64,000 nucleotides of DNA from Thermosediminibacter litoriperuensis (GCF_008124715.1 NZ_VNHO01000010.1:26578-90577), one strand, 5' to 3'; numbered from the stretch's first letter, positions 9,438 through 45,237 are shown. Numbers and translations: made by a program. Notes: generated from the sequence alone by a model not told the origin.

Positions 9438-9470
9438 CTCCGGTCGATTAAAAGAGATGGAGGCGTTTAA

Positions 9471-22040: not shown

Positions 22041-22176
22041 AAATATATGCTTTATTTACCCGGGTAATGTCCTGTCTGCCAAACTTCATAAAAATTCTAT
22101 CAAAATTATAACATTTTATAACACCTTGAAAGATCTTTTTTTATTTCGCGCAAGTTGATTACGGATTTATCGCCTC

Positions 22177-22192
22177 TGGCACAATATTTGCA
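22177..22192 (+). promoter_or_regulatory. Sigma-54 (-24/-12) promoter of the TRAP/LarA-like operon
   Basis: TGGCAC (22177-22182), five bases and TTTGCA place GG (22178-22179) and GC (22190-22191) 12 nt apart. It is nearly identical to the promoter at 5251 and sits 52 nt before the DctP start. The sigma-54 activator at the end of this gene run is the likely partner. Confidence 0.85.
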
Positions 22193-22243
22193 ATAAATTT
22201 TTAGCGCAAAGTTTTTCTAAAAACTATAAATAGGGGGTTGCTT

Positions 22244-23284
22244 ATGTTCAAAAAAATCCTATCAATTTGCTTAATCCTGCTTTTGTCTCTAACCATAGTT
22301 GCAGGATGCGGAGGAAAGCAGGCGGAGGGGCCAGCACAAACTGGTCAAAATAATCAGACCGGTAATGAAAGCAAAGACCAGATAAACATCAGAGTCGGCC
22401 ACGTTCTCGCACCAACTCATCCGTACCAGCTCGGCCTGGAGAAATTTGCGGAATTGGTAAGTCAAAAAACCAACGGGAAGGTAAAAGTGGAAGTTTTCCA
22501 CAGTTCTCAGCTGGGCAACGAAAGGGATATGGTTGAAGGATTGCAGTTGGGCACTCTCGAGATGACGCTTGTTTCCACGGCTCCCCTTTCGAGTTTTACG
22601 AAAAAGTTTATGGTATTTGATTTACCGTTTATTTTCAAAGATACTGCCTCTGCCAGAGCAGTGGTTGATGGCCCTATAGGAACTCAACTGCTTGATAGTT
22701 TAAGTGACCAGGGCATTATAGGACTTGCATACTTTGAAAATGGCTTCAGGCATGTTACCAATAACAGTAAACCAATTGAAAAACCTGAAGATCTCAAGGG
22801 AATGAAGATTAGAACAATGGAAAATCCCGTACACATGGCAACGTTTAAAGTAATGGGTGCGGATCCTACGCCAATGGCTTTTGGTGAGCTATTTACGGCC
22901 CTCCAGCAGGGGACGATAGATGGCCAGGAAAATCCCTTACCGATAGTTGAGACATCGAAATTTTATGAAGTACAAAAATATTTATCATTAACCGGACACT
23001 TCTATGCACCGGCACCACTTCTCATAAGCAAGAGCTTTTTTGAGAGTTTAAGTCCCGATGTGCAAAATGCTATAAAAGAGGCCGCTGCAGAAGCCAGGGA
23101 TTACGAAAGAAAATTGTTGGACGAAATGAACGCAAAACTGGTGGACGAGCTTCAGAAAAAAGGCATGCAGATTAACGAGGTTGATAAGGAAGCCTTCATC
23201 AAGGCTGTTCAGCCGGTGTACACGCAATTCGAAAGCCACATAACGCCGGAGCTGATTAACCAAGTTATAGAGGCCCAGAAGTGA
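22244..23284 (+). CDS. TRAP transporter substrate-binding lipoprotein (DctP family)
   Basis: The 346-residue protein has a signal peptide ending in the lipobox IVAGC, so it is membrane-anchored outside the cell. The DctP fold signature follows (VGHVLAPTHPYQLGL, GMKIRTMENPVHMATFKVMG, ALQQGTIDGQENP). The Arg of GMKIRTM normally binds a substrate carboxylate, which suggests an organic acid. ATG 22244 is preferred over TTG 22238 because AGGGGG is correctly spaced. Confidence 0.92.
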   Translation: MFKKILSICLILLLSLTIVAGCGGKQAEGPAQTGQNNQTGNESKDQINIRVGHVLAPTHPYQLGLEKFAELVSQKTNGKVKVEVFHSSQLGNERDMVEGLQLGTLEMTLVSTAPLSSFTKKFMVFDLPFIFKDTASARAVVDGPIGTQLLDSLSDQGIIGLAYFENGFRHVTNNSKPIEKPEDLKGMKIRTMENPVHMATFKVMGADPTPMAFGELFTALQQGTIDGQENPLPIVETSKFYEVQKYLSLTGHFYAPAPLLISKSFFESLSPDVQNAIKEAAAEARDYERKLLDEMNAKLVDELQKKGMQINEVDKEAFIKAVQPVYTQFESHITPELINQVIEAQK

Positions 23285-23312
23285 TGGAAGGCAGGTGAAT
23301 GCCTGCCTTCCA
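23285..23312 (+). promoter_or_regulatory. Intra-operon hairpin after the binding-protein gene
   Basis: TGGAAGGCAGG and CCTGCCTTCCA form an 11-bp stem with a 6-nt loop and no T-run. Such hairpins commonly protect the upstream binding-protein message and set its excess over the membrane subunits. Confidence 0.6.
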
Positions 23313-23337
23313 GTTAATATGATGGAGGTTTTATAAT

Positions 23338-23823
23338 ATGAAAAGAGTGAGCAAAATTTTCAATAACATAGAAGAGTATCTGGTGGTTATCCTGCTCTTT
23401 GTAATGACCGTTGTGGTCTTCTGGCAGGTAATATGCAGGTTTGTGTTGAAGGCTTCCCTTCCATGGTCGGAAGAGATCTCCCGGTATATCCTGGTTTGGG
23501 CATCCTTTCTGGGGGCCAGCATAGGAGTGAAAAGAGGAGCGCATATAGGAGTCGAAGCGTTCACCATGATTTTGCCGGCAAAATTGAAAAAGTTTGTTCA
23601 GCATTTTGCAATCATCTTAAGTGTACTTTTCTGCCTCATAGTTTTTAAGGAAAGTTTAAGTATTATACAAAAACAGATAATCAACAACCAGGTCTCGCCG
23701 GCCATGCGGATACCTATGTGGTGGGCCTATGCGGCGATCCCGACCGGGATGATATTAATGGCTATTAGATTTCTACAGACAATGGTAAAAATTTCGAGAC
23801 ATTCGACAAAGGAGGCAAACTAG
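23338..23823 (+). CDS. TRAP transporter small membrane subunit (DctQ family)
   Basis: The 161-residue protein has four hydrophobic spans and the DctQ motifs FWQVICRFVLKASLPWSEEI and RGAHIGVEAF. It links the binding protein to the large permease. The start follows a GGAGG site, and the next gene begins 3 nt after its stop. Confidence 0.92.
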   Translation: MKRVSKIFNNIEEYLVVILLFVMTVVVFWQVICRFVLKASLPWSEEISRYILVWASFLGASIGVKRGAHIGVEAFTMILPAKLKKFVQHFAIILSVLFCLIVFKESLSIIQKQIINNQVSPAMRIPMWWAYAAIPTGMILMAIRFLQTMVKISRHSTKEAN

Positions 23824-23826
23824 GAG

Positions 23827-25113
23827 ATGACGGGGATACTTTTTGGGAGTTTTGCGGTTCTTGCTATTTTAGGACTCCCTATAGCTGTGGTGCTGGGACT
23901 TTCTTCGATTGTGGCACTGGCGACATACACCGAGATCCCCCTGATGGTTGTTGCCCAGAGAATGTTTACTGCAACGGATTCATTTCCTCTGATGGCAATA
24001 CCGTTTTTTATGATGGCTGGCGCCCTTATGGAAACCGGGGGTATTTCTCGAAGGCTTATAAATCTCGCAAATAAAATCGTAGGGGGTTTACCTGGGGGGC
24101 TAGCACTCGTCGGTATAGTTACCTGCATGTTTTTTGCTGCAATTTCGGGTTCGGGTCCGGCCACCGTGGCGGCGATTGGTTCAATTCTAATTCCGGCAAT
24201 GGTAGATGCAGGATATGACCTCGGGTTTGCCGCTGCCGTAATGGCTGCTGCGGGTGCAATAGGCGTTATCATTCCTCCGAGCATCCCAATGGTAACATAC
24301 GGCGTCGTTGGAGGAGTTTCCATTGGTTCAATTTTTCTTGGCGGTTTCGGTTCCGGGATAGTAGTTGGTCTTTCACTCATAATTGTAGCGTACGTTATAT
24401 CTAAAAAAAGAGGATACCGGGGCAGTGAGAAACGTTCTTCATTTATTGATTTACTTAAAGCCATAAAGGATGCCTTTTGGGCGCTTCTGATGCCGGTCAT
24501 CATTCTAGGCGGTATATACGGCGGCATATTTACCCCGACCGAGGCGGCTGCGGTAGCAGTGGTGTACGGATTTATAGTGGGCTTTTTTATATACAGGGAG
24601 CTTAAAATAAAAGACCTGCCGAGAATCTTTATAAACACGGCCGTAAGCACATCGGTAGTAATGTTCATAATAGCGACCGCCCAGGTGTTCGGCTGGATAA
24701 TGACAAGCCAGCGCATTCCGGAAGCAATAGCTCAAGGCTTTATCAATTTTTCCAGCAATCCGTATGTGATACTTTTGCTTGTAAATATTCTGCTCCTGAT
24801 CGTGGGATGTTTTATGGAAACGAATGCCGCTATTATAATCCTTGCGCCGATATTTATTCCTCTAATGATCAAAATCGGAGTGGACCCCATATTATTCGGC
24901 ATAATAATGGTGGTAAACCTCGCAATCGGTATGGTTACTCCCCCTTTGGGCGTAAATTTATTCGTGGCGTGCGGAATCGGCAAATTGACCCTAGAGCGCA
25001 TATCAAAAGCAGTAGTGCCATTTATTCTGGCTATGGTTGTGGCGCTGGTGCTGATAACGTATATTCCTGACATATCAATGTTTCTGCCCCGAATGTTGAT
25101 GGGCAATAAATAG
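23827..25113 (+). CDS. TRAP transporter large permease (DctM family)
   Basis: The 428-residue, roughly 12-span protein has typical DctM loops: AISGSGPATVAAIGSI, GVIIPPSIPMVTYG and TPTEAAAVAVVYG. It is the sodium-coupled channel subunit. With DctP and DctQ it forms a complete transporter feeding the linked enzymes. Confidence 0.93.
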   Translation: MTGILFGSFAVLAILGLPIAVVLGLSSIVALATYTEIPLMVVAQRMFTATDSFPLMAIPFFMMAGALMETGGISRRLINLANKIVGGLPGGLALVGIVTCMFFAAISGSGPATVAAIGSILIPAMVDAGYDLGFAAAVMAAAGAIGVIIPPSIPMVTYGVVGGVSIGSIFLGGFGSGIVVGLSLIIVAYVISKKRGYRGSEKRSSFIDLLKAIKDAFWALLMPVIILGGIYGGIFTPTEAAAVAVVYGFIVGFFIYRELKIKDLPRIFINTAVSTSVVMFIIATAQVFGWIMTSQRIPEAIAQGFINFSSNPYVILLLVNILLLIVGCFMETNAAIIILAPIFIPLMIKIGVDPILFGIIMVVNLAIGMVTPPLGVNLFVACGIGKLTLERISKAVVPFILAMVVALVLITYIPDISMFLPRMLMGNK

Positions 25114-25127
25114 AGAAGGTGATATTC

Positions 25128-26375
25128 TTGAACTTTCCTAAAGTATGTAAAATAAGGCAGAAGTTCAATACCGATAAAATAGAAAACATTGAGGAAGAAA
25201 TACACAGGCAGTTTACGGAAATTCGGGCACAGGACATGGTAAAACCCGGCATGAGAATAGCGGTGACGGCAGGCAGCAGAGGGATTGCCAATATACAGAA
25301 AATACTCCGGACTGTCTGCGAATATCTCAGATCATTGGGTGCTCACCCATTTATAGTGCCTTCCATGGGAAGCCATGGGGGTGCGACGGCAGTGGGCCAG
25401 GTGAAGGTCCTCGAAAAACTTGGGATTACGGAAGAGTTCATAGGTGTACCCATTCTCTCCAGCATGGATGTGGTGGAGCTCGGCGAAACATCAAAGGGCG
25501 TTAAGGTTTATATGGATAAAATAGCGTACAACTCCGATGGAATAGTTGTCGTGAACAGGGTAAAGCCGCATACGGACTTCAGCGGTGAAATAGAAAGCGG
25601 CCTTTTAAAAATGATAGCTGTTGGCCTGGGCAAGGACAAGGGTTGCTCGGCAATGCATGCCGGCGGCCTTGCGGATACCATACCCGAGGCGGCGAACTTG
25701 GCTTTGAAAAAAGCTCCGATTCTCTTCGGGCTCGCCATTTTGGAAAACTCTAAAGACGAGACTTATAAGTTAAAAGCCCTGCTTCCCGTGGATTTTGAGA
25801 GAGAAGAAAAACTGCTTTTAAAGGAAGCAAAAAGCCTCGTACCGAAACTTCCGGTCGACGGGTTGGACGTTCTCATAGTTCAAAATATGGGCAAAATTTA
25901 CAGCGGCACGGGGATGGATACAAAAGTGATCGGGCGAATAAGGGTTTTTGGAGAAAGGGAACCGGAGGTTCCGAAGATTAATAAAATTGTCGTGCTTGAC
26001 CTGGATGAAAAATCGTACGGAAACGCCCTGGGCATAGGTTTGGCTGATATAACTACCCGCCGGCTCTATGAAAAGATAGATTTTAATGTGACTTATGCAA
26101 ATACGATTCCTACAACCTATTTGGAGAGGGGCAAAATTCCGGTTGTTATTTCGGATGATCGGGAAGCAATTTTGACGGCGTTGAAGACTATTGGGAATGT
26201 TTCTGTGGAAGAAGTTAAACTTGCTATAGTTAAAAATACGTTACATCTCGATGAGCTTTACATGACAAAACCGGCTGTTAATGCAATACGAGACAAATCT
26301 GCTGTTGAAATACTGGAAGAGGATGTAGAGCTTACTTTTGATGAAGAAAACTGCTTAAAATTATCTTGGGCATAA
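25128..26375 (+). CDS. LarA-like protein (DUF2088, lactate-racemase superfamily)
   Basis: The 415-residue protein contains NRVKPHTDFSGEIESGLLKM, then GLGKDKGCSAMHAGG, characteristic of LarA superfamily proteins. LarA itself is a nickel-pincer enzyme that epimerises 2-hydroxy acids. Histidines in KPHTDF and MHAGG and a Lys in GLLKM could serve as metal or cofactor residues, but exact correspondence is uncertain. TTG 25128 is favoured by GAGAAGGTG upstream. Following a TRAP transporter, it is the best candidate for the first enzyme acting on the imported acid. No LarB, LarC or LarE cofactor genes are in the window. Confidence 0.75.
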   Translation: MNFPKVCKIRQKFNTDKIENIEEEIHRQFTEIRAQDMVKPGMRIAVTAGSRGIANIQKILRTVCEYLRSLGAHPFIVPSMGSHGGATAVGQVKVLEKLGITEEFIGVPILSSMDVVELGETSKGVKVYMDKIAYNSDGIVVVNRVKPHTDFSGEIESGLLKMIAVGLGKDKGCSAMHAGGLADTIPEAANLALKKAPILFGLAILENSKDETYKLKALLPVDFEREEKLLLKEAKSLVPKLPVDGLDVLIVQNMGKIYSGTGMDTKVIGRIRVFGEREPEVPKINKIVVLDLDEKSYGNALGIGLADITTRRLYEKIDFNVTYANTIPTTYLERGKIPVVISDDREAILTALKTIGNVSVEEVKLAIVKNTLHLDELYMTKPAVNAIRDKSAVEILEEDVELTFDEENCLKLSWA

Positions 26376-26390
26376 TGGGAGGCGATAATC

Positions 26391-26771
26391 TTGAGGTTGA
26401 TGCATACCAGTTTACCCGAGTTCAAACTCAAAATGCAGTCGGCGGTTGTGAGACAATCGCCCAGTAAGGGATTGGAGATAAAAGGTATCGAAAACTTAAA
26501 ATCGGCGAAAATGCAATCTTTGAGAACCGGCAGGATTGAATTGGCTGTGCAGGAAGTCGCCCGGGACAGGGATATAGACAAAGTTGAAGTAGTAATAATG
26601 CCAAGAGTTCCGGAAACCATGCATACGGTGATCATTAAGGGTATTGACAAAAATGGGAATGCCAAGAAGGCCATCCTGGAAGTTATAAATATCATTCATC
26701 CAACCGAGGAAGTAGAACTTGCCGGTATTAATGATATTGATGACAGAAGGCCGCCGATAGGTAAACATTAA
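26391..26771 (+). CDS. Unrecognised protein A of the TRAP/LarA-like operon
   Basis: The 126-residue soluble protein starts at TTG 26391 behind GGGAGG. It shows VEVVIMPRVPETMHTVIIKG followed by DKNGNAKKAILEVINIIHPTEE, a compact alpha/beta pattern, and has no membrane span, cysteine pair or obvious catalytic motif. I do not recognise the family. It sits 15 nt after the LarA-like gene and 16 nt before the next gene, so it is part of the same operon. Confidence 0.7.
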   Translation: MRLMHTSLPEFKLKMQSAVVRQSPSKGLEIKGIENLKSAKMQSLRTGRIELAVQEVARDRDIDKVEVVIMPRVPETMHTVIIKGIDKNGNAKKAILEVINIIHPTEEVELAGINDIDDRRPPIGKH

Positions 26772-26787
26772 TCCTGGAGGTGTTAAT

Positions 26788-27810
26788 ATGGGAGAGCTGT
26801 TAGTGAGATATATAGAGCAGGGGAAGGGGCCTAAATACGGTGTTCCTATAAACATAGCTTTTTTAGATAAAAAAGACATAGAAGCTGCCGGCAAAACTAT
26901 AGAAGAAGCTGTGATTGCCGTAGCAAAGGCGGTAGGGGGCCCTGTTGGGATAAACGTATTCGATATGGAAGCTGTAACCACTACCAGTGATGGTGTAATG
27001 GTTGAGGGAGCTATTGTAGCTATGGCCGCAGGGGATATAGGGACCGTTCATAAAGAGTTCGGCCTGCTTTATATGGAAGAAATGCCGGTTACTCCGGATT
27101 TAATAAAGGAAGAACCGCACCTTTTACAATGGGAAACATATTACAAAGGCAGGAAGTTCTTTCGAGGTCCGAACCCCGCTAAAAAGTTAATACCTGTACA
27201 CAATGTCGTGATGACGGGAAGGGCTGTAAACAATAATTCTGCTACCGAGATGATGAACGCGGTTACCATGGAGGAAATATTACTGCCTATACTAGGCCAG
27301 CTGCAGATTATGAGGGATGAGGCTGTAGTTTTTGGCCTGACCGGTGAAGTCATATCTGTAGGCATAGGAATGACTGTGGCGGAAAAGTTTGGTAGGGTTT
27401 TCCCGAGCCGGCAGTTTAAAGCAGGAGATACCGCTCATGGTTCGGGAGAGTATGCGAAAACACTAAAAGCAAATATTCCGTGTATTGTCGCTCCGAAAAA
27501 GGTGCTTGCAAAGTATATCTTGCAGGCCCTGAAAGCGGGGATGATACCTGGATTGCATCTGGGATGTTCCCCCGCGGTCCTGGCTGTGGCAAAAGCTTAC
27601 GGTTCTCCCGTTGCGGTTGATAATATTACCGAAAAGGCCAGAGTGGAGCTGAAAAGCGTCGGAATTGATATTGGGCGATTTAAGGTCGCTGATGAGCCGA
27701 TGAGTGAAGAAGAAATTATGGAGAGAGCAGACGATATAATTCCCGGGGTAGAAGATCCGGTTTTGGTTGATTCTGAAGAGATAGTGACCAAGTTAAAATT
27801 ATATGTTTAG
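26788..27810 (+). CDS. Unrecognised 340-residue protein B of the TRAP/LarA-like operon
   Basis: The soluble protein has an N-terminal segment VRYIEQGKGPKYGVPINIAF, a Gly-rich stretch KAVGGPVGINVFDMEAVTTT, KAGDTAHGSGEYAKTL and LHLGCSPAVLAVAKAYGSPV. The repeated Gly/Ser-rich turns suggest an enzyme with a nucleotide- or phosphate-binding fold, but I cannot name a family. ATG 26788 follows GGAGGTG. Tight spacing on both sides places it in the operon. It is probably the second catalytic component. Confidence 0.7.
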   Translation: MGELLVRYIEQGKGPKYGVPINIAFLDKKDIEAAGKTIEEAVIAVAKAVGGPVGINVFDMEAVTTTSDGVMVEGAIVAMAAGDIGTVHKEFGLLYMEEMPVTPDLIKEEPHLLQWETYYKGRKFFRGPNPAKKLIPVHNVVMTGRAVNNNSATEMMNAVTMEEILLPILGQLQIMRDEAVVFGLTGEVISVGIGMTVAEKFGRVFPSRQFKAGDTAHGSGEYAKTLKANIPCIVAPKKVLAKYILQALKAGMIPGLHLGCSPAVLAVAKAYGSPVAVDNITEKARVELKSVGIDIGRFKVADEPMSEEEIMERADDIIPGVEDPVLVDSEEIVTKLKLYV

Positions 27811-27832
27811 ATCAAACAGAGGTGAAAGGTTT

Positions 27833-28225
27833 TTGGGAAACAGTCACGTGATCGTCTACGTAGATAAAACGATGGTAAAAATAACCGGGGTTAAGGTGAA
27901 AGGTTTGAAGCCCTTCGAGCTTGAACTAACCCTGAAGAATTTGATCGGTAGGCCGGTTAGGGTGATAGGTGTTACCGCGGATTCCGTCGAAATGGATGTA
28001 TATGGTCTAGCTCCAGAAGCAATATACAAAAATGAAGAGGGAATTGTCAAAGCTGTTTCAACGGTATCCGGCATAACGGCAAGCGATGTCATGAGAATTG
28101 CTTCGGCGGAAAAAGCTGTTGAGGTCTCCATAGAGGAAATTCCCAGAGGCGAGTATAACGGCTGCGCAAGAGAGAGGTGGCTGAAGCTTGATAAACAAAG
28201 CCATAATAATCCCGACGGGGGATGA
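27833..28225 (+). CDS. Unrecognised small protein C of the TRAP/LarA-like operon
   Basis: From TTG 27833 (supported by AGAGGTGAAAGG) the protein is 130 residues; an ATG at 27803 lacks a ribosome site. It has alternating beta-like stretches (MVKITGVKVKGLKPFELEL, RPVRVIGVTADSVEMDVYG) and ends CARERWLKLDKQSHN. There is no membrane span and no known motif. It overlaps the next gene by 38 nt. Confidence 0.65.
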   Translation: MGNSHVIVYVDKTMVKITGVKVKGLKPFELELTLKNLIGRPVRVIGVTADSVEMDVYGLAPEAIYKNEEGIVKAVSTVSGITASDVMRIASAEKAVEVSIEEIPRGEYNGCARERWLKLDKQSHNNPDGG

Positions 28226-28715
28226 GATATTAAACGGCACGGTTGTTGATACTAACAGTCCCGCAATAATGAGCATCATAATTGAGAAATTCCCGGGCTG
28301 TGAAGTGAAGCGTGAAAAGCCTGTAATAGATGCTGAAGAATATATTATCAAAAGTGTAGAAAGAGCGTTGCTGGAAAAGCCTGATTTAATTATTTTAATT
28401 GGCGGCACCGGCGGAGGTCACAGATATGTCTCCACTTTAGCGAGGGATTTTACCCACAGTGCCCTAATGAGGACATTGCCAAAAGTTGTGTACAGAGAAT
28501 TGATCGGTTCCAACGGACATTTATGGTCCAAATTGGTATGCGGAGAAAAAGGTGGATGCATTATAGCTAATGTTCCGGGCCCTTACGAGGAAGCGATCGA
28601 AACGGCTAGAGCTTTGATTGAATGTATTAATGATGGGGTTGAGGATCCGGAAATTCTTGTAAATGAGGCCGCCAGGGCGTTAAAAAAAATATATTTAGCG
28701 GGAGGAGGAAGTTGA
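28188..28715 (+). CDS. MoaB/CinA-like molybdopterin-binding-fold protein
   Basis: The 175-residue protein begins with IIPTGDEILNGTVVDTNSP and has LIILIGGTGGG further on. These are the two diagnostic loops of the MPT-binding fold shared by MogA, MoaB, MoeA and CinA. It lacks other MoeA or CinA domains, so it is a free-standing domain. A third segment KGGCIIANVPGPYEEAIETA is also visible. TTG 28188 follows AGAGAGGTGG. Its role in this operon is unknown; binding a phosphorylated or nucleotide-like cofactor is possible. Confidence 0.7.
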   Translation: MINKAIIIPTGDEILNGTVVDTNSPAIMSIIIEKFPGCEVKREKPVIDAEEYIIKSVERALLEKPDLIILIGGTGGGHRYVSTLARDFTHSALMRTLPKVVYRELIGSNGHLWSKLVCGEKGGCIIANVPGPYEEAIETARALIECINDGVEDPEILVNEAARALKKIYLAGGGS

Positions 28716-29293
28716 AACTTTCAAGTTTTATATTCAAATCCAGGACTTTGGAAGGATTCCCTGTCATAGTTGCGGGTATCTGCCCGCAAAGCTTTGAGCC
28801 GATGGCTAAGAAAACGATGAATGATATAATTAAAGGGTTTCAAGCAGAAGGCGTAAAGGATGGGTTTGAACTCGACTATAAACTGGCGCAATATGTGTGT
28901 TCTAAAACCCCCGAATATATTTTGGCTTTGGGGGTGTCTATTTTTGTTCCGGGTGTAAAGGAGCCTGCGGGGGGAATAATAGGAAATCCAAGAAAAAGCA
29001 TTTCTTCGGCATGTGGTTTAATCGAGAGTATCGGAAACAACCTGAGCCTTGTGGCATATCCCGGAGGTCCTGGTGTTGTAATTGAAAGTCCTCCTGGAAA
29101 AGCTGCAAATATCTTAAATATTGCTAAAGCTAAAGGGAGAAATGATATAGAAACGGTAATTCAAATAGCGATAAAAATACTGACGCATTCTATAGCCAAT
29201 GCTATAATTATTTCAGATGGCAGCGGTGTGCAGGGGGTAGGATGTGGTGCCGCCATTAGAGGCAATAGGGTAGAATTATGTATCTTAAATTAG
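28712..29293 (+). CDS. Unrecognised protein D of the TRAP/LarA-like operon
   Basis: The 193-residue protein shows AGICPQSFEPMAKKTMNDII, YLAQYVCSKTP-like and GVKEPAGGIIGNPR segments, and a Gly-rich C terminus (SDGSGVQGVGCGAAIRGN). It is soluble and has no motif I can assign. It starts at TTG 28712, overlapping the previous stop. Its own end overlaps the raw frame of the activator, so it is the last structural gene. Confidence 0.65.
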   Translation: MKLSSFIFKSRTLEGFPVIVAGICPQSFEPMAKKTMNDIIKGFQAEGVKDGFELDYKLAQYVCSKTPEYILALGVSIFVPGVKEPAGGIIGNPRKSISSACGLIESIGNNLSLVAYPGGPGVVIESPPGKAANILNIAKAKGRNDIETVIQIAIKILTHSIANAIIISDGSGVQGVGCGAAIRGNRVELCILN

Positions 29294-29307
29294 GGAGGTT
29301 AAGAGGG

Positions 29308-30747
29308 GTGATAAGAACCAAGTTCAGCAAAGAGGAAGAGCTAATTATGCTTTATACAATACTTGAAAATTTGCGCGAAGGTGTTAATGTCGTTGATGAA
29401 AAAGGAATATTGCTTTTTGTTAATAAGGCTTCTGCCTACTATGCACGTTCTACCGTGGAACGTATGTTAGGGGAGCACATAAGTAAATTTTACCCGAGAG
29501 CTGCTCTATTTGAAGTGCTAAAAACTAAACAGCCTCTTTTAGATATAAGAATAGAACATGATGATGGTAGGAAATATATTGTCAATGCTGTGCCGTTGAT
29601 AATTAATGATAAATTTAGAGGCGGTGTGGCTACCTTTCGAGATGTCACCGAAATAGAAGAGTTAAGCCAAAAACTTGAATCGCTGGAAATGGAGCTCTGT
29701 TTGAGTAAAGTGGACGACGCATTTGATGCAATTATAGGTAAAGAAGGGAGTTTGAAGGAGGCCGTTTTGAAAGCCCAGCGGGCTATAGGGTCACCGGGAG
29801 GGCCGAGGCATTCCATAATAGTAGGTGAATCGGGCACAGGTAAAACAATGTTTGCGAAAGCCATGTATTATTTTGCAAAAAAGATAGGAGTTTTAAGCCA
29901 GGAGGCGCCTTTCATAGAGGTCAATTGCGCCCAGTTTACAAATCCCGATATTGCTGCAATAGAAATTTTCGGTTCAGAAAAAGGAGCTTTTACAGGAGCT
30001 GTAGAGAAGAAAGGATTGCTTGAGTTAGCAAATGGCGGAATGTTCTTCTTGGATGAAGCACACGCGCTGGAACATTACCAGACAATGTTGCTGAAAGTAT
30101 TGGAAACCGGAAAGGTCAGGAGAATAGGCGGGCGGAAAGAGATAGATATAGATGTAATTATCGTAGCCGCTTCGACAAAGAATTTAAAAAATGTATTGTT
30201 ACCTGAGCTTTATCAGAGATTAGCACAGTATGAAATTAAATTGTCCCCATTGAGGGAAAGGCCATTATTAGAAAAAGAACAGTTATTAAAATATTTTAAG
30301 GAAAATTACGAAAAGAAAGCCCAGGATAGGTATAAGATAAAACTGAAGGTTAATTTTTCGAACGCGGCAAAAGATGTTTTGTTGAACGCTTATTACCCGA
30401 GAAACATAAGGCAATTTAGAGATATAGTAAACGCCAGTATTGATGCCGCTTTGCCTATTATAAGTGAAATAGAAAAAAATTCGGAAATACATTCATTGAT
30501 TGATATAGACAATATACCGTTTGATTTCTTGGAATCTGAAGACACGTGTAAATGCGAGGAAAAGGGACTGGCTGATATAATTTCGGACAATGTCGAAAAC
30601 CAAGAAGAACTGATTAATAAAATAATCTTGCGCTTAAGGGAAAAAGGATTAGGACCAAGAAAAATTTCTAATATTTTAAAAGGAAAAGGCTTTTGTATTG
30701 AATACTATCAAGTCGCTTATATTTTGAAAAAATTACTTTCTCAATAG
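29308..30747 (+). CDS. PAS-AAA+ sigma-54-dependent activator with a non-Fis C terminus
   Basis: The protein has a PAS domain (about 10-125) and a sigma-54 AAA+ domain with Walker A GESGTGKT, an intact GAFTGA loop and Walker B FFLDEA. The C-terminal part does not look like the usual Fis helix-turn-helix. It ends with INKIILRLREKGLGPRKISN and a further helix pair that may form a different DNA-binding fold. GTG 29308 with AGGGAGG is the better start than 29278. As last gene of the TRAP/LarA-like operon it probably activates the -24/-12 promoter at 22177. Confidence 0.88.
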   Translation: MIRTKFSKEEELIMLYTILENLREGVNVVDEKGILLFVNKASAYYARSTVERMLGEHISKFYPRAALFEVLKTKQPLLDIRIEHDDGRKYIVNAVPLIINDKFRGGVATFRDVTEIEELSQKLESLEMELCLSKVDDAFDAIIGKEGSLKEAVLKAQRAIGSPGGPRHSIIVGESGTGKTMFAKAMYYFAKKIGVLSQEAPFIEVNCAQFTNPDIAAIEIFGSEKGAFTGAVEKKGLLELANGGMFFLDEAHALEHYQTMLLKVLETGKVRRIGGRKEIDIDVIIVAASTKNLKNVLLPELYQRLAQYEIKLSPLRERPLLEKEQLLKYFKENYEKKAQDRYKIKLKVNFSNAAKDVLLNAYYPRNIRQFRDIVNASIDAALPIISEIEKNSEIHSLIDIDNIPFDFLESEDTCKCEEKGLADIISDNVENQEELINKIILRLREKGLGPRKISNILKGKGFCIEYYQVAYILKKLLSQ

Positions 30748-30825
30748 GTCCGTGCTTTCTATGCTGACGAAAAGAAGAACTGCGCCTCCTAAACTGCGTC
30801 TCCTATGTGTCGAATATTTAGCATT

Positions 30826-30868
30826 AGACCTCACACTTCTTTGTTTTTTGGTGGTGAGGTCTTTTTTT
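30826..30868 (+). terminator. Terminator of the TRAP/LarA-like operon
   Basis: AGACCTCAC (30826-30834) pairs with GTGAGGTCT (30854-30862) across a T-rich 19-nt loop and is followed by seven T. It lies 79 nt after the activator stop. The AT-rich gap to 31039 shows no further gene. Confidence 0.8.
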
Positions 30869-31039
30869 GTGTTTGAATGTCTTTTTGTTTCTATACTGTC
30901 ATTTTCAGCCTCATTAGTGGGCCGTAGAAAAGCCGATGTTGCTCTCATAAAAAAGTCAAGCAGGAATTTTAAAAAAATTATAGAATAAGTACCTAAATTT
31001 AAAATTTATAATATATACCAAGTAAAAGAGGTGTACACC

Positions 31040-32269
31040 TTGACCAGATACAGGCTCAAGGACGTTATCGATAAGGCAAAACTCGAGGAAATATTAAAAA
31101 AATTTTCGGAAGCTACTGGTCTTGCTGCAATTATTGCAGACAAAAGTGGTGTAAATATCACAGAACCGAGTAAATTTACAAACCACTGCAATCTGGTAAG
31201 AAGCACCGAAAAAGGAAGAAAATACTGTTACAACTCCGATGCGAAACTCGGCAGGTTGTCTTTAAAAAAAGGGGGCCCGGCCACATCCCTGTGTCATTGT
31301 GAAATTGTAGACCTGGCAGCGCCTCTGGTCGTAGAAGGCCATTGCCTCGGCTATATACTGTGCGGCCAGGTGTTTTTAAAGCCGCCCGACGAAGAAAAAA
31401 TAGAAAGGGCAAAGAAGAGAGCTATAGACTTCGGCCTAGACCCGAACCTTTATGTGAAGACCTTTCTCGAAATAGAGACGGTTCCTAAAAAACATATTTA
31501 TACCACCGGAGAGATGCTCCACATAATTTCAAACTATATCATCGAGCTTGGGGTAAATTCACTTTATCAAAAGCGACTTCTGGAAGAAACAAAGAGGCGT
31601 TCGGAATACGAAAATGCCATTAAAACGTTGGAATTAAAGGCCCTTCAGTCCCAGGTAAATCCTCATTTTCTTTTTAACACTTTAAATACAGCGGCAAGGC
31701 TTGCCTATTTTGAAAACGCCGAAAAGACCGCAGAGATAATTTATTCTCTGGCTAATCTTTTACGGTATTCACTTAAAAATTTAGACCAATTGGTACCTTT
31801 AAAAGAAGAAATCTCGTGTATAGGATATTACCTTTATATTCAGCAGTTCAGATATAAGGACCATATCAGGGCTGAAATTGAATTTCCGAAAAAGTTGGAA
31901 AAATATCTTATTCCGGTGTTAAGCCTGCAACCCCTCGTAGAAAACGCAATTGTACACGGATTGGAAAAAAAGAAAGAAGGGGGGCAGGTAAAGGTGGTTG
32001 GATATGAAAAGGATTCATGCGTTTTTATCGATATCATAGATGATGGTGTAGGTATTCAAGAGGAAGTTTTAAATAATATTAATAACATTAATAAGCAGAA
32101 GATCGCGCTGGAAGGCCACACTACGGGACTGGGGATTCATAATGTGGATTTGAGGATAAAAAAATATTTTGGGGAGAATTACGGCTTAAAAATAGAAAGC
32201 AAAGTTGGAATCGGGACGAAGGTAACGTTAAAAATCCCGAGAATGGTCAACAGGGGGATCCAGTTATGA
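31040..32269 (+). CDS. PocR-domain LytS-type sensor histidine kinase
   Basis: The N-terminal half (about 1-170) matches the PocR ligand-binding domain: CNLVRSTEKGRKYCYNSD, CHCEIVDLAAPLVVEGHCLG and GYILCGQVFL. The C-terminal half is a LytS/His_kinase domain with QVNPHFLFNTLN (phospho-His), followed by an ATPase region with GVGIQEE and TGLGIHNV. PocR domains sense propanediol-type compounds in pdu regulation, and a pdu operon lies downstream. TTG 31040 is preferred to GTG 31031 for ribosome-site spacing. It is coupled by a 4-nt overlap to the response regulator. Confidence 0.88.
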   Translation: MTRYRLKDVIDKAKLEEILKKFSEATGLAAIIADKSGVNITEPSKFTNHCNLVRSTEKGRKYCYNSDAKLGRLSLKKGGPATSLCHCEIVDLAAPLVVEGHCLGYILCGQVFLKPPDEEKIERAKKRAIDFGLDPNLYVKTFLEIETVPKKHIYTTGEMLHIISNYIIELGVNSLYQKRLLEETKRRSEYENAIKTLELKALQSQVNPHFLFNTLNTAARLAYFENAEKTAEIIYSLANLLRYSLKNLDQLVPLKEEISCIGYYLYIQQFRYKDHIRAEIEFPKKLEKYLIPVLSLQPLVENAIVHGLEKKKEGGQVKVVGYEKDSCVFIDIIDDGVGIQEEVLNNINNINKQKIALEGHTTGLGIHNVDLRIKKYFGENYGLKIESKVGIGTKVTLKIPRMVNRGIQL

Positions 32270-33863
32270 GTTATAAGGTTTTAGTATGCGACGATGAAGC
32301 GCTGGAAAGAGAAGTGATCTCCCTGATAATTCAAAAGTCGGGGCTCCCCTTCCACGCTGTGGGAGAAGCCAGAAATGGGTATGAAGCGGTGGAAAAGGCA
32401 AGAGAATTAAAACCCGATGTAATTTTTATGGATATAAAAATGCCGGGGAAAGATGGATTGGCGGCCACCGCGGAGATAAAGGATGTATTGCCTCATGTTA
32501 AGGTGATAATAACGACAGCCTACGACGATTTTGAATTCGCCAAAGAGGCGTTGAGGCTTGGAAGCATAGACTATTTATTAAAACCGATAAGGCCCGAAGA
32601 ATTCATAGCAGTTTTAAATAAGTTGTTGAATCTATTCGAAAAAGAAATGATGAGCAAAAAACAGGAGGAAGAGCTGAAGAAGGCCATCAAAAAAGCGGAA
32701 AAAATGATAAAAGCCGGCATCCTTGCCAGTCTTGTCATGGGAGAAGCTGAGAAAAATGAGGAAAGGGATATATTGCTGAAGCAGGCCCAATTATTGGATA
32801 TCACATTCCTCCCCAATGCCCTTTTGATAGTTGAGCCCAATATCGATGAATTGCATACCGGCGCGGTATATGAAAGGTATAAAGTATTTAAAATTACGGA
32901 AGAACTGATCGGCGATATGAACGAAGTATTTTTACTGAATTTGGGGGAAAGTCTGGTAATCGGCATACAGAAAGAGAAAATAGACCCGCAGGTGTTGGCT
33001 TCGACAATACAAAAAAAGGTTGAAGAAAATACCGACGTTTGCGTCACGATAAGCATCGGTGAAGCTCCAGATATTATCAACAAAACTATTTATGAAGAGA
33101 CAAAAGCCAATGCCCGCCTGGGGAGGTTCTTCTTCGGAGGGAAAATAGTTAATAAGCAGGAAATGGATGATTTAATGAAGTCTACGGAAAAGGCGGACGA
33201 TGAAATGGAAAACCAGTTGCTGGACTATGTCATGATGGCTAATTACCAGGAGGCTTCAAAATTATTCCAGAAAATAATAAAAAATCTGGTCATAAAAAGC
33301 AGAGGTTCGCTGCTTTTCTGTCAGACCCGGATTGCAGAAATAATGCTACTGATTTGGAGGAGTGTAAGACAACTGGGATGGGTCGATAATAACAATTCTC
33401 ACCTTTATTTCAATTATTTAAAAAAATTATCAAAAGCTCAATCCTTATACGCTCTTACCGAATGCTGCAGGAATTATTTGAGCGACGTGTTTGTTCTGAA
33501 TAATAATTTAAAGAAAAAAATGGCATTGTCAATCTGGTGGTCAAGTATGTCAATGAAAACTATGACAAAGATTTAAAGCTAAAAGATATAACAAAGATGG
33601 TATATTTAAATTCGGAATATTTCAGTCGCTTATTTAAGAAAGAAGTGGGGTGTACTTATGCGGAATACCTCACACGGGTCAGAATCGAAGCTGCCAGGAA
33701 ATACCTGTCAAATCCTGCTCTCACGATAGCCGATGTGGCCAAAAAGATCGGCTATCAGGACCCGAATTATTTCAGCAAAGTATTTAAAAAAGTGGTAGGG
33801 GTTAGCCCCACTGAATATAGGTTGAGCTTAGGGATGACACAAAACGAACAGCCCAGCATATAA
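32266..33863 (+). pseudogene. CheY-AraC type response regulator, frameshifted at an A7 run
   Basis: The first frame (to 33576) contains a receiver domain (VCDDEALEREV, phospho-acceptor Asp in VIFMDIKMPG, Lys in LLKPIRPEE) and a long middle region. The AraC helix-turn-helix is in another frame (to 33863): DITKMVYLNSEYFSRLFKKE and IADVAKKIGYQDPNYFSKVF. Adding one A to the seven at 33514-33520 would join them into one protein of about 532 residues (...KKKNGIVNLVVKYVNENYD). It pairs with the PocR kinase and would control the pdu operon. The break may be real, phase-variable or a sequencing error. Confidence 0.8.
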
Positions 33864-33881
33864 CAGGGCTGTTCGTTTTTT
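33841..33881 (+). terminator. Terminator of the two-component system
   Basis: AAAACGAACAGCCC (33841-33854) pairs with GGGCTGTTCGTTTT (33866-33879), loop 11 nt, followed by more T. It overlaps the response-regulator stop codon. The symmetric A/T flanks would also serve the minus-strand debris. Confidence 0.85.
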
Positions 33882-33902
33882 CTTATTTGGGATGTTTACT
33901 GC

Positions 33903-34030
33903 TTAAACCATTGCGAAGAGGAAAAATCCTCCGAGCACCCCGCCCAGTAGACCGCTAAGGACCGGCTCCCAGTCTATCTTCTTACCTTCCATCAGATCCG
34001 CTAGGGTAAACCTCCGCTCATCTGGGGTTC
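33903..34030 (-). pseudogene. 3' fragment of a small membrane-protein gene
   Basis: A frame ending at TAA 33903-33905 reads RTPDERRFTLADLMEGKKID, then WEPVLSGLLGGVLGGFFLFAMV. It has one clear hydrophobic span. ATG 33992 would give only 29 residues. It seems to be the tail of a longer protein that has lost its frame. Confidence 0.45.
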
Positions 34031-34207
34031 TTACATCAGCCCGATGCCGTGGTTCAAAAGCCATATGGTACCAACTATGAAAAAGCCGGCCAGGACTCCT
34101 CCGAAGCTCTTGTATTCATCGGCCAATTTGCCCCATACCAGGCCGATAACCAGCGGGAAAATAATATCCCCGAAAATAGTGGTCAGCACGTGCTGCCATG
34201 TCCACAT
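34031..34207 (-). CDS. 58-residue small membrane protein, possibly a surviving fragment
   Basis: An open frame from ATG 34207 to TAA 34031 encodes two hydrophobic spans (about 12-26 and 36-54) around VWGKLADEYKSFGG. A weak GAGAGG lies upstream. It is the only unbroken frame in the 33903-34602 block. I cannot assign a family. It may be a fragment of a decayed membrane complex. Confidence 0.4.
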   Translation of the reverse strand: MWTWQHVLTTIFGDIIFPLVIGLVWGKLADEYKSFGGVLAGFFIVGTIWLLNHGIGLM

Positions 34208-34602
34208 TACACATCATTCCTCTCGCAGCGTATAGGAGATAACCGGCCAGCGTCGCTCCGGCGAGCTGCAGGAATATGGTCATCAGTGCACCGCCAAGTT
34301 AGCACCGTGGAAGATACCGTAAGCTATCCTGACGAGGCCCTTTACCGGGTCGAGCACCACGGTCCCGCCGAGCAGGGCCGAAAGCCATACCGATAGGGCC
34401 ATATCCACCCAGGCGCCGCCGCCCTTGTTGGGTATACTGCCGGCATAGTGATTTACCAGCCAGCCCGTCGTTATTATGATTCCAGCCGCGAGCCAGCCGC
34501 CAGCCAGTTCCACCGGGCCAGGCATGAGGGCCATATGGTAAATACTCCGAAGCCTACAAAGGCACCGGTACACATACCCGCGAGAATTCGCCTTAAACTC
34601 AT
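34208..34602 (-). pseudogene. Frameshifted small membrane-protein gene
   Basis: A good start (ATG 34602 with GGAGG at 34610-34614) opens MSLRRILAGMCTGAFVGFGV, then the frame breaks near 34545. The sequence resumes in another frame with VELAGGWLAAGIIITTGWLV and GGGAWVDMALSVWLSALLGG. It breaks again near 34285 and continues with TIFLQLAGATLAGYLLYAA. At least two indels are needed to restore one protein of about 125 residues with four spans. The family is unrecognised. Confidence 0.55.
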
Positions 34603-34903
34603 TTTCTTACCTCCCCGAAAATACAAAGTTTGTGTTCTAGAATGTTTGTACCACCTCCCGTAGAATTATTCATCAATCGGTAGGGCAGATTCAATTCAAA
34701 TATTCTTTATTTTTGGGATTCGGGTTTAAATTCCTCTGAAAAAATATGACTTGGGTGTCTGGATTTTTTTGTACTGAGTTTTTTAAAAGGATTACCGGCT
34801 CTCAAAAAAATGCAGTATCCAGGTCGATTTAATCCAGAGGGATAATGACGGAATTGCAGAAAAGATGTTCTATAGAAATTTAAATTTCGGAGGTGTTTAT
34901 TCA
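34603..34903 (+). other. Intergenic region before the pdu operon
   Basis: About 300 nt hold no gene. GGATT occurs several times with flanking T or A runs (around 34717, 34761 and 34789), which could be binding sites for the AraC-type regulator, but spacing is irregular. I saw no sigma-54 promoter and no cobalamin riboswitch (no B12-box). Confidence 0.3.
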
Positions 34904-35182
34904 ATGAACGGAGAAGCGCTAGGCATGGTAGAGACCAGAGGTTTGATCCCCGCCATAGAGGCGGCAGATGCTATGGTGAAGGCTGCAAATGTCAAGCTTG
35001 TGGGGTATGAAAAAATAGGATCCGGTCTGGTAACCGTCATGGTCCGGGGCGATGTGGGTGCGACCAAGGCGGCTACCGATGCGGGTGCAGCCGCGGCCAG
35101 AAAAGTGGGAGAGGTTGTTTCGGTCCATGTCATTCCGCGGCCTCACAGCGATGTGGAAAAAATCCTTCCGAAATCAGAGTAA
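34904..35182 (+). CDS. pduA: BMC-H shell protein (PduA-like)
   Basis: The 92-residue single BMC domain ([50 protein letters not shown]) forms hexameric facets of the microcompartment. ATG 34904 with CGGAGGTG is preferred over ATG 34865. It is the first gene of the operon, as in known pdu loci. It is the only short BMC-H here, so it probably is the main facet protein; a separate pduJ is absent. Confidence 0.92.
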
Positions 35183-35214
35183 TAAAATAGTGCCGCGTAA
35201 GGAGGTGGCATAAA

Positions 35215-35994
35215 GTGGATGAATTGACGATAAAAAAGCTGGTGAAAGAGATAATCGGTAAGGTGGACTCGGAAGAGAAAAAGCCGGTATGCCCCGCCGT
35301 AACAAATCCGGGCGTTACGGAATTTGTGGGCACGGCTATCGGCGACACCATAGGCCTTGTTATTGCAAACATCGATTCCAAGCTGCTGGAGAAAACGGGG
35401 TTAGATAAGAGGTTCCGCTCTATAGGCATTTTGGGAGGCAGGACGGGAGCGGGGCCGCAAATAATGGCCGCTGATGAAGCTGTAAAGGCCACGAATACCG
35501 AGATAGTGGCTGTTGAACTGGCCAGAGACACTAAAGGCGGGGCCGGACACGGTTCGCTGATTATTTTCGGCGCCGAAGAGGTGTCCGACGCTCGTAGAGC
35601 AGTGGAAGTGGCTTTAAAAGAATTGCCCAGAACCTTCGGCGACGTTTATGTGAATGATGCAGGGCACCTGGAATTTCAATATACCGCCAGAGCAAGTTAT
35701 GCCATTGAAAAGGCTTTCGGAGCTCCCCTGGGCAAGGCCTTCGGCCTTATAGTCGGAGCGCCGGCGGCCATTGGTGTGGTGTGCTGCGATACGGCCGTAA
35801 AGGCAGCGGAAGTTGATATAGTCGGATATGCTAGCCCGGCCAAGGGCACCAGTTTTACCAATGAGGCCATTCTATTTCTCTCCGGCGAGTCAGGGGCTGT
35901 AAGGCAGGCTTTGATAGCAGCCCGCGAAATCGGCAAAAAACTGCTGGCCACGTTGGGCGAAGAGCCGAAGTCGCTGGGTACGCCGTACATCTAA
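35215..35994 (+). CDS. pduB: Tandem-BMC shell protein PduB
   Basis: At 259 residues with two BMC folds (LVIANIDSKLLEKTGL and the second about 150-245) this matches PduB trimers. The N-terminal helix DELTIKKLVKEIIGKV precedes the shell domains and may tie cargo to the shell, as described for PduB. GTG 35215 follows AAGGAGG. Confidence 0.9.
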   Translation: MDELTIKKLVKEIIGKVDSEEKKPVCPAVTNPGVTEFVGTAIGDTIGLVIANIDSKLLEKTGLDKRFRSIGILGGRTGAGPQIMAADEAVKATNTEIVAVELARDTKGGAGHGSLIIFGAEEVSDARRAVEVALKELPRTFGDVYVNDAGHLEFQYTARASYAIEKAFGAPLGKAFGLIVGAPAAIGVVCCDTAVKAAEVDIVGYASPAKGTSFTNEAILFLSGESGAVRQALIAAREIGKKLLATLGEEPKSLGTPYI

Positions 35995-36018
35995 TCCGGG
36001 AGAGGGGGGAAACGGAAA

Positions 36019-37683
36019 ATGAAGTCTAAGCGCTTCCAGGTGTTGGCCGAGAGGCCGGTAAATAAAGACGGTTTTGTCGCCGAATGGCCGGAAGTTGGAC
36101 TGGTAGCTGTTGAAAGTCCCAATGACCCAAAGCCCAGCATTAAGATAGAAAACGGCAAAATCGTCGAGATGGATGGCAAAAAGAGAGAAGATTTCGACAT
36201 GATAGAACAGTTTATAGCGGACTACGCCATAGATGTCGAAATGGCTGAAAAGGCAATGAAAATGGATAGTGTGGAAATAGCCAGGATGCTGGTGGATATA
36301 AATGTTCCCAGAGAAGAAGTAATAAAAATAACCAGCGGCCTAACGCCAGCCAAGATCGTGGAAGTTGTTAACATGCTCAACGTGGTAGAGATAATGATGG
36401 CAATTCAAAAGATGCGAGCTAGGAAAAGGCCGGGCAACCAGTGCCATGTGACAAACCTGAGAGACAACCCTGTATTGTTAGCGGCTGATGCCGCGGAAGC
36501 GGCGCTGAGAGGTTTTGATGAGGAAGAGACCACTGTGGGCATCACCAGGTATGCGCCTTTCAACGCGCTGGCACTTCTCGTAGGCTCTCAAACCGGGCGG
36601 GGTGGCGTGCTGACCCAGTGCGCTCTCGAAGAGGCCTTCGAACTCACCATCGGCATGAGGGGATTTACGTCCTATGCCGAGACCATTTCCGTATATGGCA
36701 CGGAACAGGTTTTTGTAGACGGAGACGACACGCCGTGGTCTAAGGCTTTTCTAGCTTCCGCCTATGCCTCGAGAGGTTTGAAGATGAGGTTTACGTCGGG
36801 TTCGGGGTCCGAAGTTCAGATGGGTTACGCAGAAGGCAAATCGATGCTGTATCTGGAAACTCGCTGCGTCATGATTTCGAAGGGAGCCGGGGTGCAGGGC
36901 TTGCAGAACGGCTCTATAAGCTGTATAGGTGTCCCGGGAGCTGTGCCTTCAGGCATAAGAATAGTGGCAGGCGAAAACCTGATAACTACGATGCTCGATC
37001 TGGAAGTAGCTTCGGGCAGCGATCAGACCTTCTCGCATTCTGATATAAGACGCACGGCCAGGACTCTGCTCCTGATGTTACCGGGTACAGACCTTATTTT
37101 CTCCGGTTACAGCTCCGTTCCCAACTATGACAATATGTTTGCTGGTTCCAATTTTGATATCGAGGATGTGGACGATTATCTTGCCCTCCAGAGGGATTTG
37201 ATGGTGGATGGCGGTCTGAAGCCGGTCACCGAAGAGGAAGTCATCGCGGTTAGGAATAAAGCGGCCAGGGCTTTGCAGGCTGTGTTCAAGAAACTGGGGC
37301 TGCCGCCCATAACCGACGAGGAAGTTGAAGCTGCAACGTATGCTCACGGATCAAAAGATATGCCTTTAAGGGACGTAAACGAAGATTTAAAGGCTGCAAC
37401 AGAAATTATGAACAGAGGAATTCACGGCCTGGACATTGTAAAAGCTCTTGCCGAAAGCGGTTTTAAAGACGTGGCTGAAAATATATTTAACATGCTGAAA
37501 CAGAGGATAGCCGGCGATTACTTGCATACTTCCGCAGTGCTTGACAAAGATTTCAACATCGATTCCGCCGTCAATAACCCCAATGACTATATGGGTCCCG
37601 GTACAGGTTATAGGCTGTCGGCGGAAAGATTGGAAGAAATAAAGAATATTCCGCAGGCGTTAAAACCGGAAGACTTCAAATAA
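36019..37683 (+). CDS. pduC: Coenzyme B12-dependent diol/glycerol dehydratase large subunit
   Basis: The 554-residue protein is a full-length PduC/DhaB1. Recognisable blocks are NQCHVTNLRDNPVLLAADAA, FDEEETTVGITRYAPFNA with the catalytic-site Glu, GAVPSGIRIVAGEN and SDQTFSHSDIRRTARTL. It converts 1,2-propanediol to propionaldehyde (or glycerol to 3-hydroxypropionaldehyde) inside the microcompartment. The diol/glycerol preference cannot be read from sequence. The pdu-type neighbours favour propanediol. Confidence 0.95.
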   Translation: MKSKRFQVLAERPVNKDGFVAEWPEVGLVAVESPNDPKPSIKIENGKIVEMDGKKREDFDMIEQFIADYAIDVEMAEKAMKMDSVEIARMLVDINVPREEVIKITSGLTPAKIVEVVNMLNVVEIMMAIQKMRARKRPGNQCHVTNLRDNPVLLAADAAEAALRGFDEEETTVGITRYAPFNALALLVGSQTGRGGVLTQCALEEAFELTIGMRGFTSYAETISVYGTEQVFVDGDDTPWSKAFLASAYASRGLKMRFTSGSGSEVQMGYAEGKSMLYLETRCVMISKGAGVQGLQNGSISCIGVPGAVPSGIRIVAGENLITTMLDLEVASGSDQTFSHSDIRRTARTLLLMLPGTDLIFSGYSSVPNYDNMFAGSNFDIEDVDDYLALQRDLMVDGGLKPVTEEEVIAVRNKAARALQAVFKKLGLPPITDEEVEAATYAHGSKDMPLRDVNEDLKAATEIMNRGIHGLDIVKALAESGFKDVAENIFNMLKQRIAGDYLHTSAVLDKDFNIDSAVNNPNDYMGPGTGYRLSAERLEEIKNIPQALKPEDFK

Positions 37684-37712
37684 ATAAGACCGGGAAAGGA
37701 GGGTGTAAATTT

Positions 37713-38387
37713 ATGATAAATACGGAAATGGTCGTCGAGGAAGTAGTGAAAGAAGTTTTGAAAAGGTTGGCCGGAGAAAAGGAAACGGTTGCGAAGGACC
37801 ATGCGGTTAATAAGCCCGCGGGCCGGGAACTCCTTTTGGAAGAAATAGGAGAAGCAAAGCCGGGGACCAGGGAAGAAGAAGTAGTAATCGGCATTTCTCC
37901 AGCCTTTGGAGTTAAATTTTATGAAAATATCACCGGAATTCCTCTGGGGGACATATTGAGAGAAATAATGGCGGGTATTGCCGAAGAGGGGCTGAATGCG
38001 AGGGTGATCCGCGTCAGACACACCGCCGATGTGGCCTTCATCGGCCATACTGCAGCAAAACTTTCCGGTTCGGGTGTAGGCATAGGGTTGCAGTCGAGGG
38101 GAACCGCCGTAATACATCACAAGGACTTGCAGCCTTTAAATAACCTGGAGCTGTTCCCGCAGTGCCCTGTTTTAACCCTTGAAACATACAGGACAATAGG
38201 GAAAAATGCAGCCCTGTACGCCAAAGGCGAGTCCCCTACGCCGGTCCCGGTGATGAACGACCAGATGGCCAGGCCTAAGTTTCAGGCCAAAGCGGCTGTT
38301 ATGCATAATTTTGAGACGCAGTATGTAAAGCCCGGTTTGAAGCCCGTAGAGATGAAAGTTTCCTTTAGCAAAGGAGGTGCCAATTGA
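37713..38387 (+). CDS. pduD: Diol dehydratase medium subunit
   Basis: The 224-residue protein starts with an amphipathic helix (MVVEEVVKEVLKRLAG), the kind of encapsulation peptide that targets PduCDE to the shell interior. The catalytic core follows (IGISPAFGVKFYENITGIP, GIAEEGLNARVIRVRHTADV, GIGLQSRGTAVIHHKDL) and contacts the B12 base-on cofactor. Confidence 0.94.
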   Translation: MINTEMVVEEVVKEVLKRLAGEKETVAKDHAVNKPAGRELLLEEIGEAKPGTREEEVVIGISPAFGVKFYENITGIPLGDILREIMAGIAEEGLNARVIRVRHTADVAFIGHTAAKLSGSGVGIGLQSRGTAVIHHKDLQPLNNLELFPQCPVLTLETYRTIGKNAALYAKGESPTPVPVMNDQMARPKFQAKAAVMHNFETQYVKPGLKPVEMKVSFSKGGAN

Positions 38388-38902: not shown

Positions 38903-38935
38903 TATCGCAATAAGATAAGTAATGGAGGCAGTGCC

Positions 38936-41106: not shown

Positions 41107-41126
41107 TCGAGGAGGGAGGGGAGAGC

Positions 41127-41597: not shown

Positions 41598-41633
41598 AAT
41601 TCCGGCTAAACTCTTGCCGATGAGGTGAATGAT

Positions 41634-42272: not shown

Positions 42273-42314
42273 TGATTCCGCCCGGCGGGTGAGGGGACGG
42301 AAGGAGATATTTTT

Positions 42315-43127: not shown

Positions 43128-43139
43128 GGAGTGGTGATT

Positions 43140-43922: not shown

Positions 43923-43931
43923 GGTGAAAAA

Positions 43932-45231: not shown

Positions 45232-45237
45232 CATATA

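Follow-up and report, generated by a model that had tools for sequence, protein, structure and literature searches.

A sigma-54-type operon of Thermosediminibacter litoriperuensis joining a TRAP transporter, a LarA homologue and five small genes, with a possible role in sugar-acid catabolism

What would a bacterium do with an operon that places a tripartite ATP-independent periplasmic (TRAP) transporter, a LarA homologue and five small genes under one promoter? The question is raised by a stretch of 64,000 nucleotides of Thermosediminibacter litoriperuensis DNA (GCF_008124715.1, NZ_VNHO01000010.1:26578-90577; hereafter the window), in which a direct repeat, a sigma-54 promoter, the TRAP genes, the LarA homologue, the five small genes, an activator gene and a terminator form one block at 22107-30868, all on the plus strand. 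All of these parts except the direct repeat had been proposed in an earlier note made from the sequence alone, and reading of open reading frames (ORFs), Pfam and NCBIfam searches and searches for promoters and hairpins found every one of them in its place. The operon is genuine and no artefact, and no account of such an operon was found in the literature searched. The explanation that we prefer, with a probability of about 45%, is that this would be a substrate-inducible operon through which a polyhydroxy carboxylic acid is broken down under anaerobic conditions; the LarA homologue would epimerise C2 of the acid, and the five proteins would perform the next step.

The LarA homologue and its five companions

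The LarA homologue (25119-26375, start possibly TTG 25128) belongs to NF052515, nickel-pincer nucleotide isomerase group 22, which it matches over its full length above the curated cut-off (525 vs 400 bits), and it also carries a Lar_N domain (41.4 vs 23.3). When group 22 is compared with canonical LarA, the active-site His residues and one Arg align, His being found in module-linked members at the positions of the catalytic H108 and H174 and of H200. In contrast, the Asp of the SDITR motif has no aligned counterpart, and the counterpart of the cofactor lysine (K184 in LarA) may be displaced by three residues, an invariant Lys lying 13 residues past the second His as opposed to 10. No described activity for this group was found in the literature searched.

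Downstream of this gene, ORFs of 126, 340, 130, 175 and 193 residues were found: o126 (26391-26771; 45-88% identity in 12 relatives), o340 (26788-27810), o130 (27833-28225), oMPT (28188-28715, overlapping o130) and the Gly-rich o193 (28712-29293). Genes overlap or nearly abut from 23338 to 30747. It had been claimed that four of these proteins match nothing, which holds against Pfam, NCBIfam and PDB sequences and, for the two that were modelled, against known folds. For o126, o340, o130 and o193, no Pfam match came near its cut-off in any family member tested, the NCBIfam search gave no match, and sequence profiles found no convincing PDB match. AlphaFold models of o340 and o193 gave no hit to a PDB fold with E under 0.08; the o193 model is confident (mean predicted local distance difference test score 88.7), and that of o340 is poor at residues 132-161 and 189-226, so its negative fold search is weak. 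The best PDB profile hit of o126, a DsbG-domain protein (E = 0.0076), was treated as chance or a lead only, and so was a weak resemblance of o130 to the beta subunit of D-lysine 5,6-aminomutase over 44 residues (E = 0.019), in which the B12 motif is missing. An identification of o126 and o340 as the small and large parts of altronate dehydratase (UxaA) was rejected (hhalign probability below 1%), and no hidden kinship was found among the five proteins or with LarA.

The fifth protein, oMPT, has a MoCF (molybdopterin-binding) domain above the Pfam cut-off (PF00994, 55.3 vs 26.6), in common with proteins of the MogA, MoaB and CinA type. It differs from these in that it reached no MogA, MoaB or CinA equivalog cut-off in NCBIfam, and their GGTG motif reads GG(S/T)GGGHR in oMPT. 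As for o340, it has many invariant H, D and E residues and one C; those conserved across genera include D59, D68, H88, H111, H138, H217 and C260, which look like an active site and make o340 the probable catalytic subunit.

When o340 alone was used to scan 84,980 genomes, a search that reaches close relatives only, six loci were found. Class and phylum samples added more, and the set that was read comprises 13 further loci carrying the 340-residue gene. All six genes of the module (LarA and the five-gene core) are kept in 11 of them; the incomplete loci are L010, cut by a contig end, and that of G004 (L011, on the same contig as L024), which lacks o193. The usual order is LarA-o126-o340-o130-oMPT-o193, with other genes interleaved in two genomes and LarA placed last in G380. 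Culturable carriers of the operon include Fonticella tunisiensis DSM 24455. Within the phylum sample, o340 occurs in nine of 398 genomes, all nine of which also have a group-22 LarA above cut-off. When the phylum was searched once more around Sporomusa, most of the genomes drawn were those of the first search and no additional module loci came out; no plasmid-borne copy of the module was found. The gene set is thus kept together in many genera, and none of its four unplaced proteins matched a characterised pathway; the opposite outcomes were those by which the earlier note would have been refuted.

Around this module the loci differ. The window and L007, L008, L021 and L022 have the TRAP genes and the activator (Type 1). 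DeoR, DUF1537 kinase and PdxA-type dehydrogenase genes stand ahead of the TRAP genes in L006 (Clostridium aestuarii), L026 and L027 (Type 2). G004 and G072 combine the TRAP genes with short-chain and zinc dehydrogenases (Type 3), together with either an aldehyde:ferredoxin oxidoreductase and a protein like old yellow enzyme, or a four-gene set, taken by eye for a 2-oxoacid oxidoreductase, and an HpaB-family protein. Such an apparent 2-oxoacid:ferredoxin oxidoreductase set (by eye), with a protein of the HpaB/4-hydroxybutyryl-CoA-dehydratase family, lies inside the module operon at L025:10821-14908. L009 (Sporomusa) and L023 carry the core without an adjoining transporter (Type 4), and in both a second MoaB/MogA-like gene is placed between oMPT and o193 (L009:3848-4345 and L023:7662-8168). 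In G380 the transporter is an ATP-binding cassette system of the oligopeptide type, as judged by eye (Type 5).

The core does not follow one LarA lineage. In a tree of 41 group-22 LarA proteins, the 13 that are linked to the module fall into several subclades, which requires at least five changes. Moreover, the LarA tree and the tree of o126, o340, o130 and oMPT reject each other (approximately unbiased test, p = 0.001 and 0.0004, under a simple model). From this disagreement, it appears that the five-gene core was combined with different LarA lineages, or that its LarA was replaced; an alternative compatible with the tree is that LarA loci lost the core repeatedly. Re-pairing or replacement would suggest that the core is functionally tied to this type of LarA and that the reaction of the core is not limited to a single substrate. 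Thus, the core looks like a unit that is separable from the transporter and from a particular LarA.

Could the five proteins instead serve LarA itself, by making, loading or repairing a variant of the nickel-pincer nucleotide, whose nucleotide part the MPT-fold protein would bind? MoCF-fold proteins do bind nucleotide-like cofactors, oMPT has this fold, and group-22 LarA is present in all sampled genomes of the phylum that have o340. In addition, three module genomes (G244, G313 and G380, which are 93, 77 and 98% complete) encode LarA homologues, including group 22, and have no LarB, LarC or LarE over cut-off. Group 22, however, is far wider than the core: it is above cut-off in 84 of the 398 genomes, and at least 75 sampled genomes have it without o340. 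The earlier note had also suggested a look for larB, larC and larE elsewhere, and the window genome does have larE-larB-larC adjacent to one another (G000, contig C31:8000-23173, L068), with no larA beside them, as well as a second, canonical LarA on contig C6. A replacement of LarB, LarC and LarE by the module was considered and then ranked lower, since two of the three genomes that lack them also hold canonical LarA homologues and the gap is not specific to the module; these three genomes may have either divergent cofactor genes or cofactor uptake. On balance we consider a service role for the core quite unlikely.

Substrate and reaction

Evidence for a substrate class comes from LarA group 22 where it occurs without the module. 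Neighbours were read at 26 loci without the module, chosen from the 30 best-scoring loci and not from a random sample. Beside LarA in these 26 there are IlvD/EDD dehydratases (5), DHDPS/KDG-type aldolases (5), altronate/galactarate dehydratases (2) and KDGal kinases (2), plus a mandelate-racemase-family enzyme, a KDPG aldolase and a DUF1537 kinase. These sugar-acid enzymes suggest that group 22 acts on sugar acids, and a polyhydroxy (sugar) acid is moderately supported as the substrate class. Sugar-acid operons that combine this LarA with IlvD/EDD, altronate dehydratase or KDG aldolase are similar to the module loci in their LarA family and, often, in having a TRAP system. They differ in that the module loci lack such a dehydratase or aldolase and have five other proteins; no gene for a known dehydratase could be recognised in these loci. 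As LarA group 22 often stands beside a known sugar-acid dehydratase when the module is missing, dehydration is favoured as the core reaction, with a lower probability than the explanation as a whole.

A simpler proposal would be that a 2-hydroxy acid resembling lactate, malate or hydroxyglutarate is handled via a new multi-protein pathway. DctP-type TRAP binders carry carboxylates, many LarA homologues racemise simple hydroxy acids (PMC7583248), and genes for GlcF-like proteins and D-2-hydroxyacid dehydrogenases are also found among the group-22 neighbours. Nevertheless, most of these neighbours are sugar-acid enzymes, and known relatives of the kinase and PdxA-type pair that accompanies some module loci act on four-carbon acid sugars, which leaves a simple acid an unlikely substrate. 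The earlier note had expected uptake of an organic (hydroxy) acid and its processing by several new proteins; this stands in outline, and it is the simple 2-hydroxy acid that the neighbours speak against, in favour of polyhydroxy acids.

The substrate is possibly a four-carbon tetronate. D-erythronate and D-threonate are C2 epimers. The three Type 2 loci carry DeoR, DUF1537 kinase and PdxA-type genes in cis, and genes of these two families, DeoR and DUF1537, are a mark of erythronate/threonate loci as well (PMC10580937); C2 epimerisation of 4-deoxy-threonate/erythronate is reported for LarA homologues (PMC11770544). As a lead, the kinase and the PdxA-type enzyme of Type 2 loci could receive D-threonate from LarA. 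The known four-carbon acid sugar pathway (DUF1537 kinase and PdxA-type 4-phosphate dehydrogenase) is found in cis in these three loci; in the window genome it is encoded in trans, by a uxaA-kdgT-DUF1537-pdxA operon (names other than DUF1537 and PdxA given by eye). As described, this pathway needs neither the five core proteins nor a LarA homologue. Runs of uxaA-like small and large genes, a KdgT-like permease, a DUF1537 kinase and a PdxA-type gene were seen at G000 C9:72000-84000 (L109) and in L110, L112, L114 and L115, and they usually adjoin a large sigma-54-type activator (partly by eye).

Transport, promoter and activator

The transporter is a complete TRAP system, with DctP, DctQ and DctM encoded together and each far above its Pfam cut-off. 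The solute-binding lipoprotein DctP (22244-23284; PF03480, 364 bits; TIGR00787, 326.6 vs cut-off 175) starts at an ATG preceded by AGGGGG, its frame being open also from TTG 22238. It is followed by the small permease DctQ (23338-23823; PF04290, 131 bits) and the large permease DctM (23827-25113; PF06808, 425.7; TIGR00786, 463 vs cut-off 268).

Ahead of dctP lies a -24/-12 promoter, TGGCACAATATTTGCA (22177-22192), an exact match to the sigma-54 consensus. The pattern alone is not rare, since the window holds three exact matches and shuffled sequences gave a mean of 1.57 with at most one mismatch. We judge this promoter to be beyond chance because its position is conserved 47-64 bp 5' of the dctP start in all five Type 1 loci, and because the same block of genes is kept in many genera. 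The repeat TATAACA-TTT-TATAACA (22107-22123), 70 bp ahead of the promoter, is a candidate upstream activating sequence (UAS); TATAACA-N3-TATAACA has a single match in the window and in the whole 2.34-Mb genome. In the upstream regions, when read by eye, TMTAACA is directly repeated every 10 bp. The exact pair is present in the window, L008, L021 and L022 and in no other of 115 loci examined, with a variant in L007. A search for an inverted-repeat site gave nothing shared between loci, direct repeats being found instead. Neither the promoter element nor the repeat was seen upstream of dctP in L006, L025, L026 and L027, all of which lack the activator gene. With a position-conserved -24/-12 promoter, an activator gene and an upstream site, the operon has the parts of a sigma-54-dependent system, and we infer that the repeats are the binding site of its own activator.

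This activator (29278-30747) has PAS and sigma-54 activation domains (Pfam; PF00158, 128.6) with a GAFTGA motif, and an intrinsic terminator follows it at 30826-30868 (hairpin 30826-30862 and a T run; z = -3.95 vs shuffles). It shares the PAS-AAA+ architecture of PrdR-type activators, and PrdR is its best NCBIfam match, which brings in a further possibility, that the five proteins work as a reductase that takes up surplus electrons, in the way that D-proline and glycine reductases do in Stickland fermentation. The carriers seen are anaerobes, and a multi-subunit complex with several small proteins would fit. Yet the activator is far under the PrdR cut-off (NF041552, 228 vs 795 bits) and belongs to another operon with another repeat, the UAS of PrdR-type activators being reported as TGT and ACA inverted repeats (PMC6615313). 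Furthermore, no core protein matches the glycine/proline reductase Pfam families, and the core ORFs are ordinary uninterrupted frames. We regard a reductase as very unlikely. The table of enhancer-binding protein groups consulted in the same source, which reconstructs Clostridiales sigma-54 regulons, does not include a TRAP/LarA operon.

A second sigma-54 unit is found in the window at 3677-10376, with a PAS activator (3677-5125), a perfect -24/-12 site at 5251, a sodium-symporter-like gene (5437-6852, by eye), a trans-4-hydroxy-L-proline dehydratase (7005-9437; 1146 vs 1100 bits) and its activase (9471-10376). After the operon, at 31031-48543, there is a propanediol/glycerol dehydratase locus with the large subunit, the reactivase and an acylating aldehyde dehydrogenase, and with a PocR-like sensor kinase at 31031; microcompartment genes are suspected within it, from size alone.

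A proposed pathway and its meaning

Taken together, our reading of the operon as a polyhydroxy-acid catabolic system would run as follows. The terminal PAS activator would sense the acid or one of its metabolites, bind the TATAACA repeats and fire the promoter, and the TRAP system would bring the acid in. LarA, with a nickel-pincer cofactor, would then invert C2 to give the diastereomer accepted by the downstream enzymes. The five core proteins would act as one complex on the epimerised acid, in which o340 would probably be the catalytic subunit and o126, o130, oMPT and o193 its partners. Their step is most likely dehydration or a comparable removal of a hydroxyl. The exit of the product may vary by genome, through DUF1537 kinase and PdxA-type dehydrogenase, dehydrogenases or ferredoxin oxidoreductases.

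Several observations weigh against this reading. The tree conflict may stem in part from long branches (L028 and L009). The dehydratase idea follows from the logic of gene replacement only, and profile comparison found no kinship of o340 or o126 with altronate dehydratase. As to the tetronates, the C. aestuarii locus (L006) falls short of the models for DtnK (285 vs 450 bits) and D-threonate 4-phosphate dehydrogenase (281 vs 583), and its PdxA-type enzyme scores above the cut-off of the general PdxA model (PRK03743, 542 vs 470); the kinase and dehydrogenase set is confined to three module loci, and the DUF1537 and PdxA-type families also occur in a sister genome that does not have the module. 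Finally, with no LarB, LarC or LarE over cut-off in three module genomes, dependence on the nickel-pincer cofactor would not be universal, or the cofactor would be obtained otherwise.

Going one step further, the five proteins might be subunits of one new enzyme class, for instance a sugar-acid dehydratase of unrecognised fold, whose substrate is made by a nickel-pincer epimerase and which is paired with different LarA proteins for different acids; we offer this tentatively, as a possibility on which the odds are against us. Should the five proteins make up an enzyme, a step done in known pathways by Fe-S or enolase-type dehydratases would be solved here in a new way. Four families without recognised relatives travel as a unit with a common group of LarA. 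Moreover, one transporter, one dedicated regulator and one predicted binding site in the genome would offer a direct route to the inducing acid.

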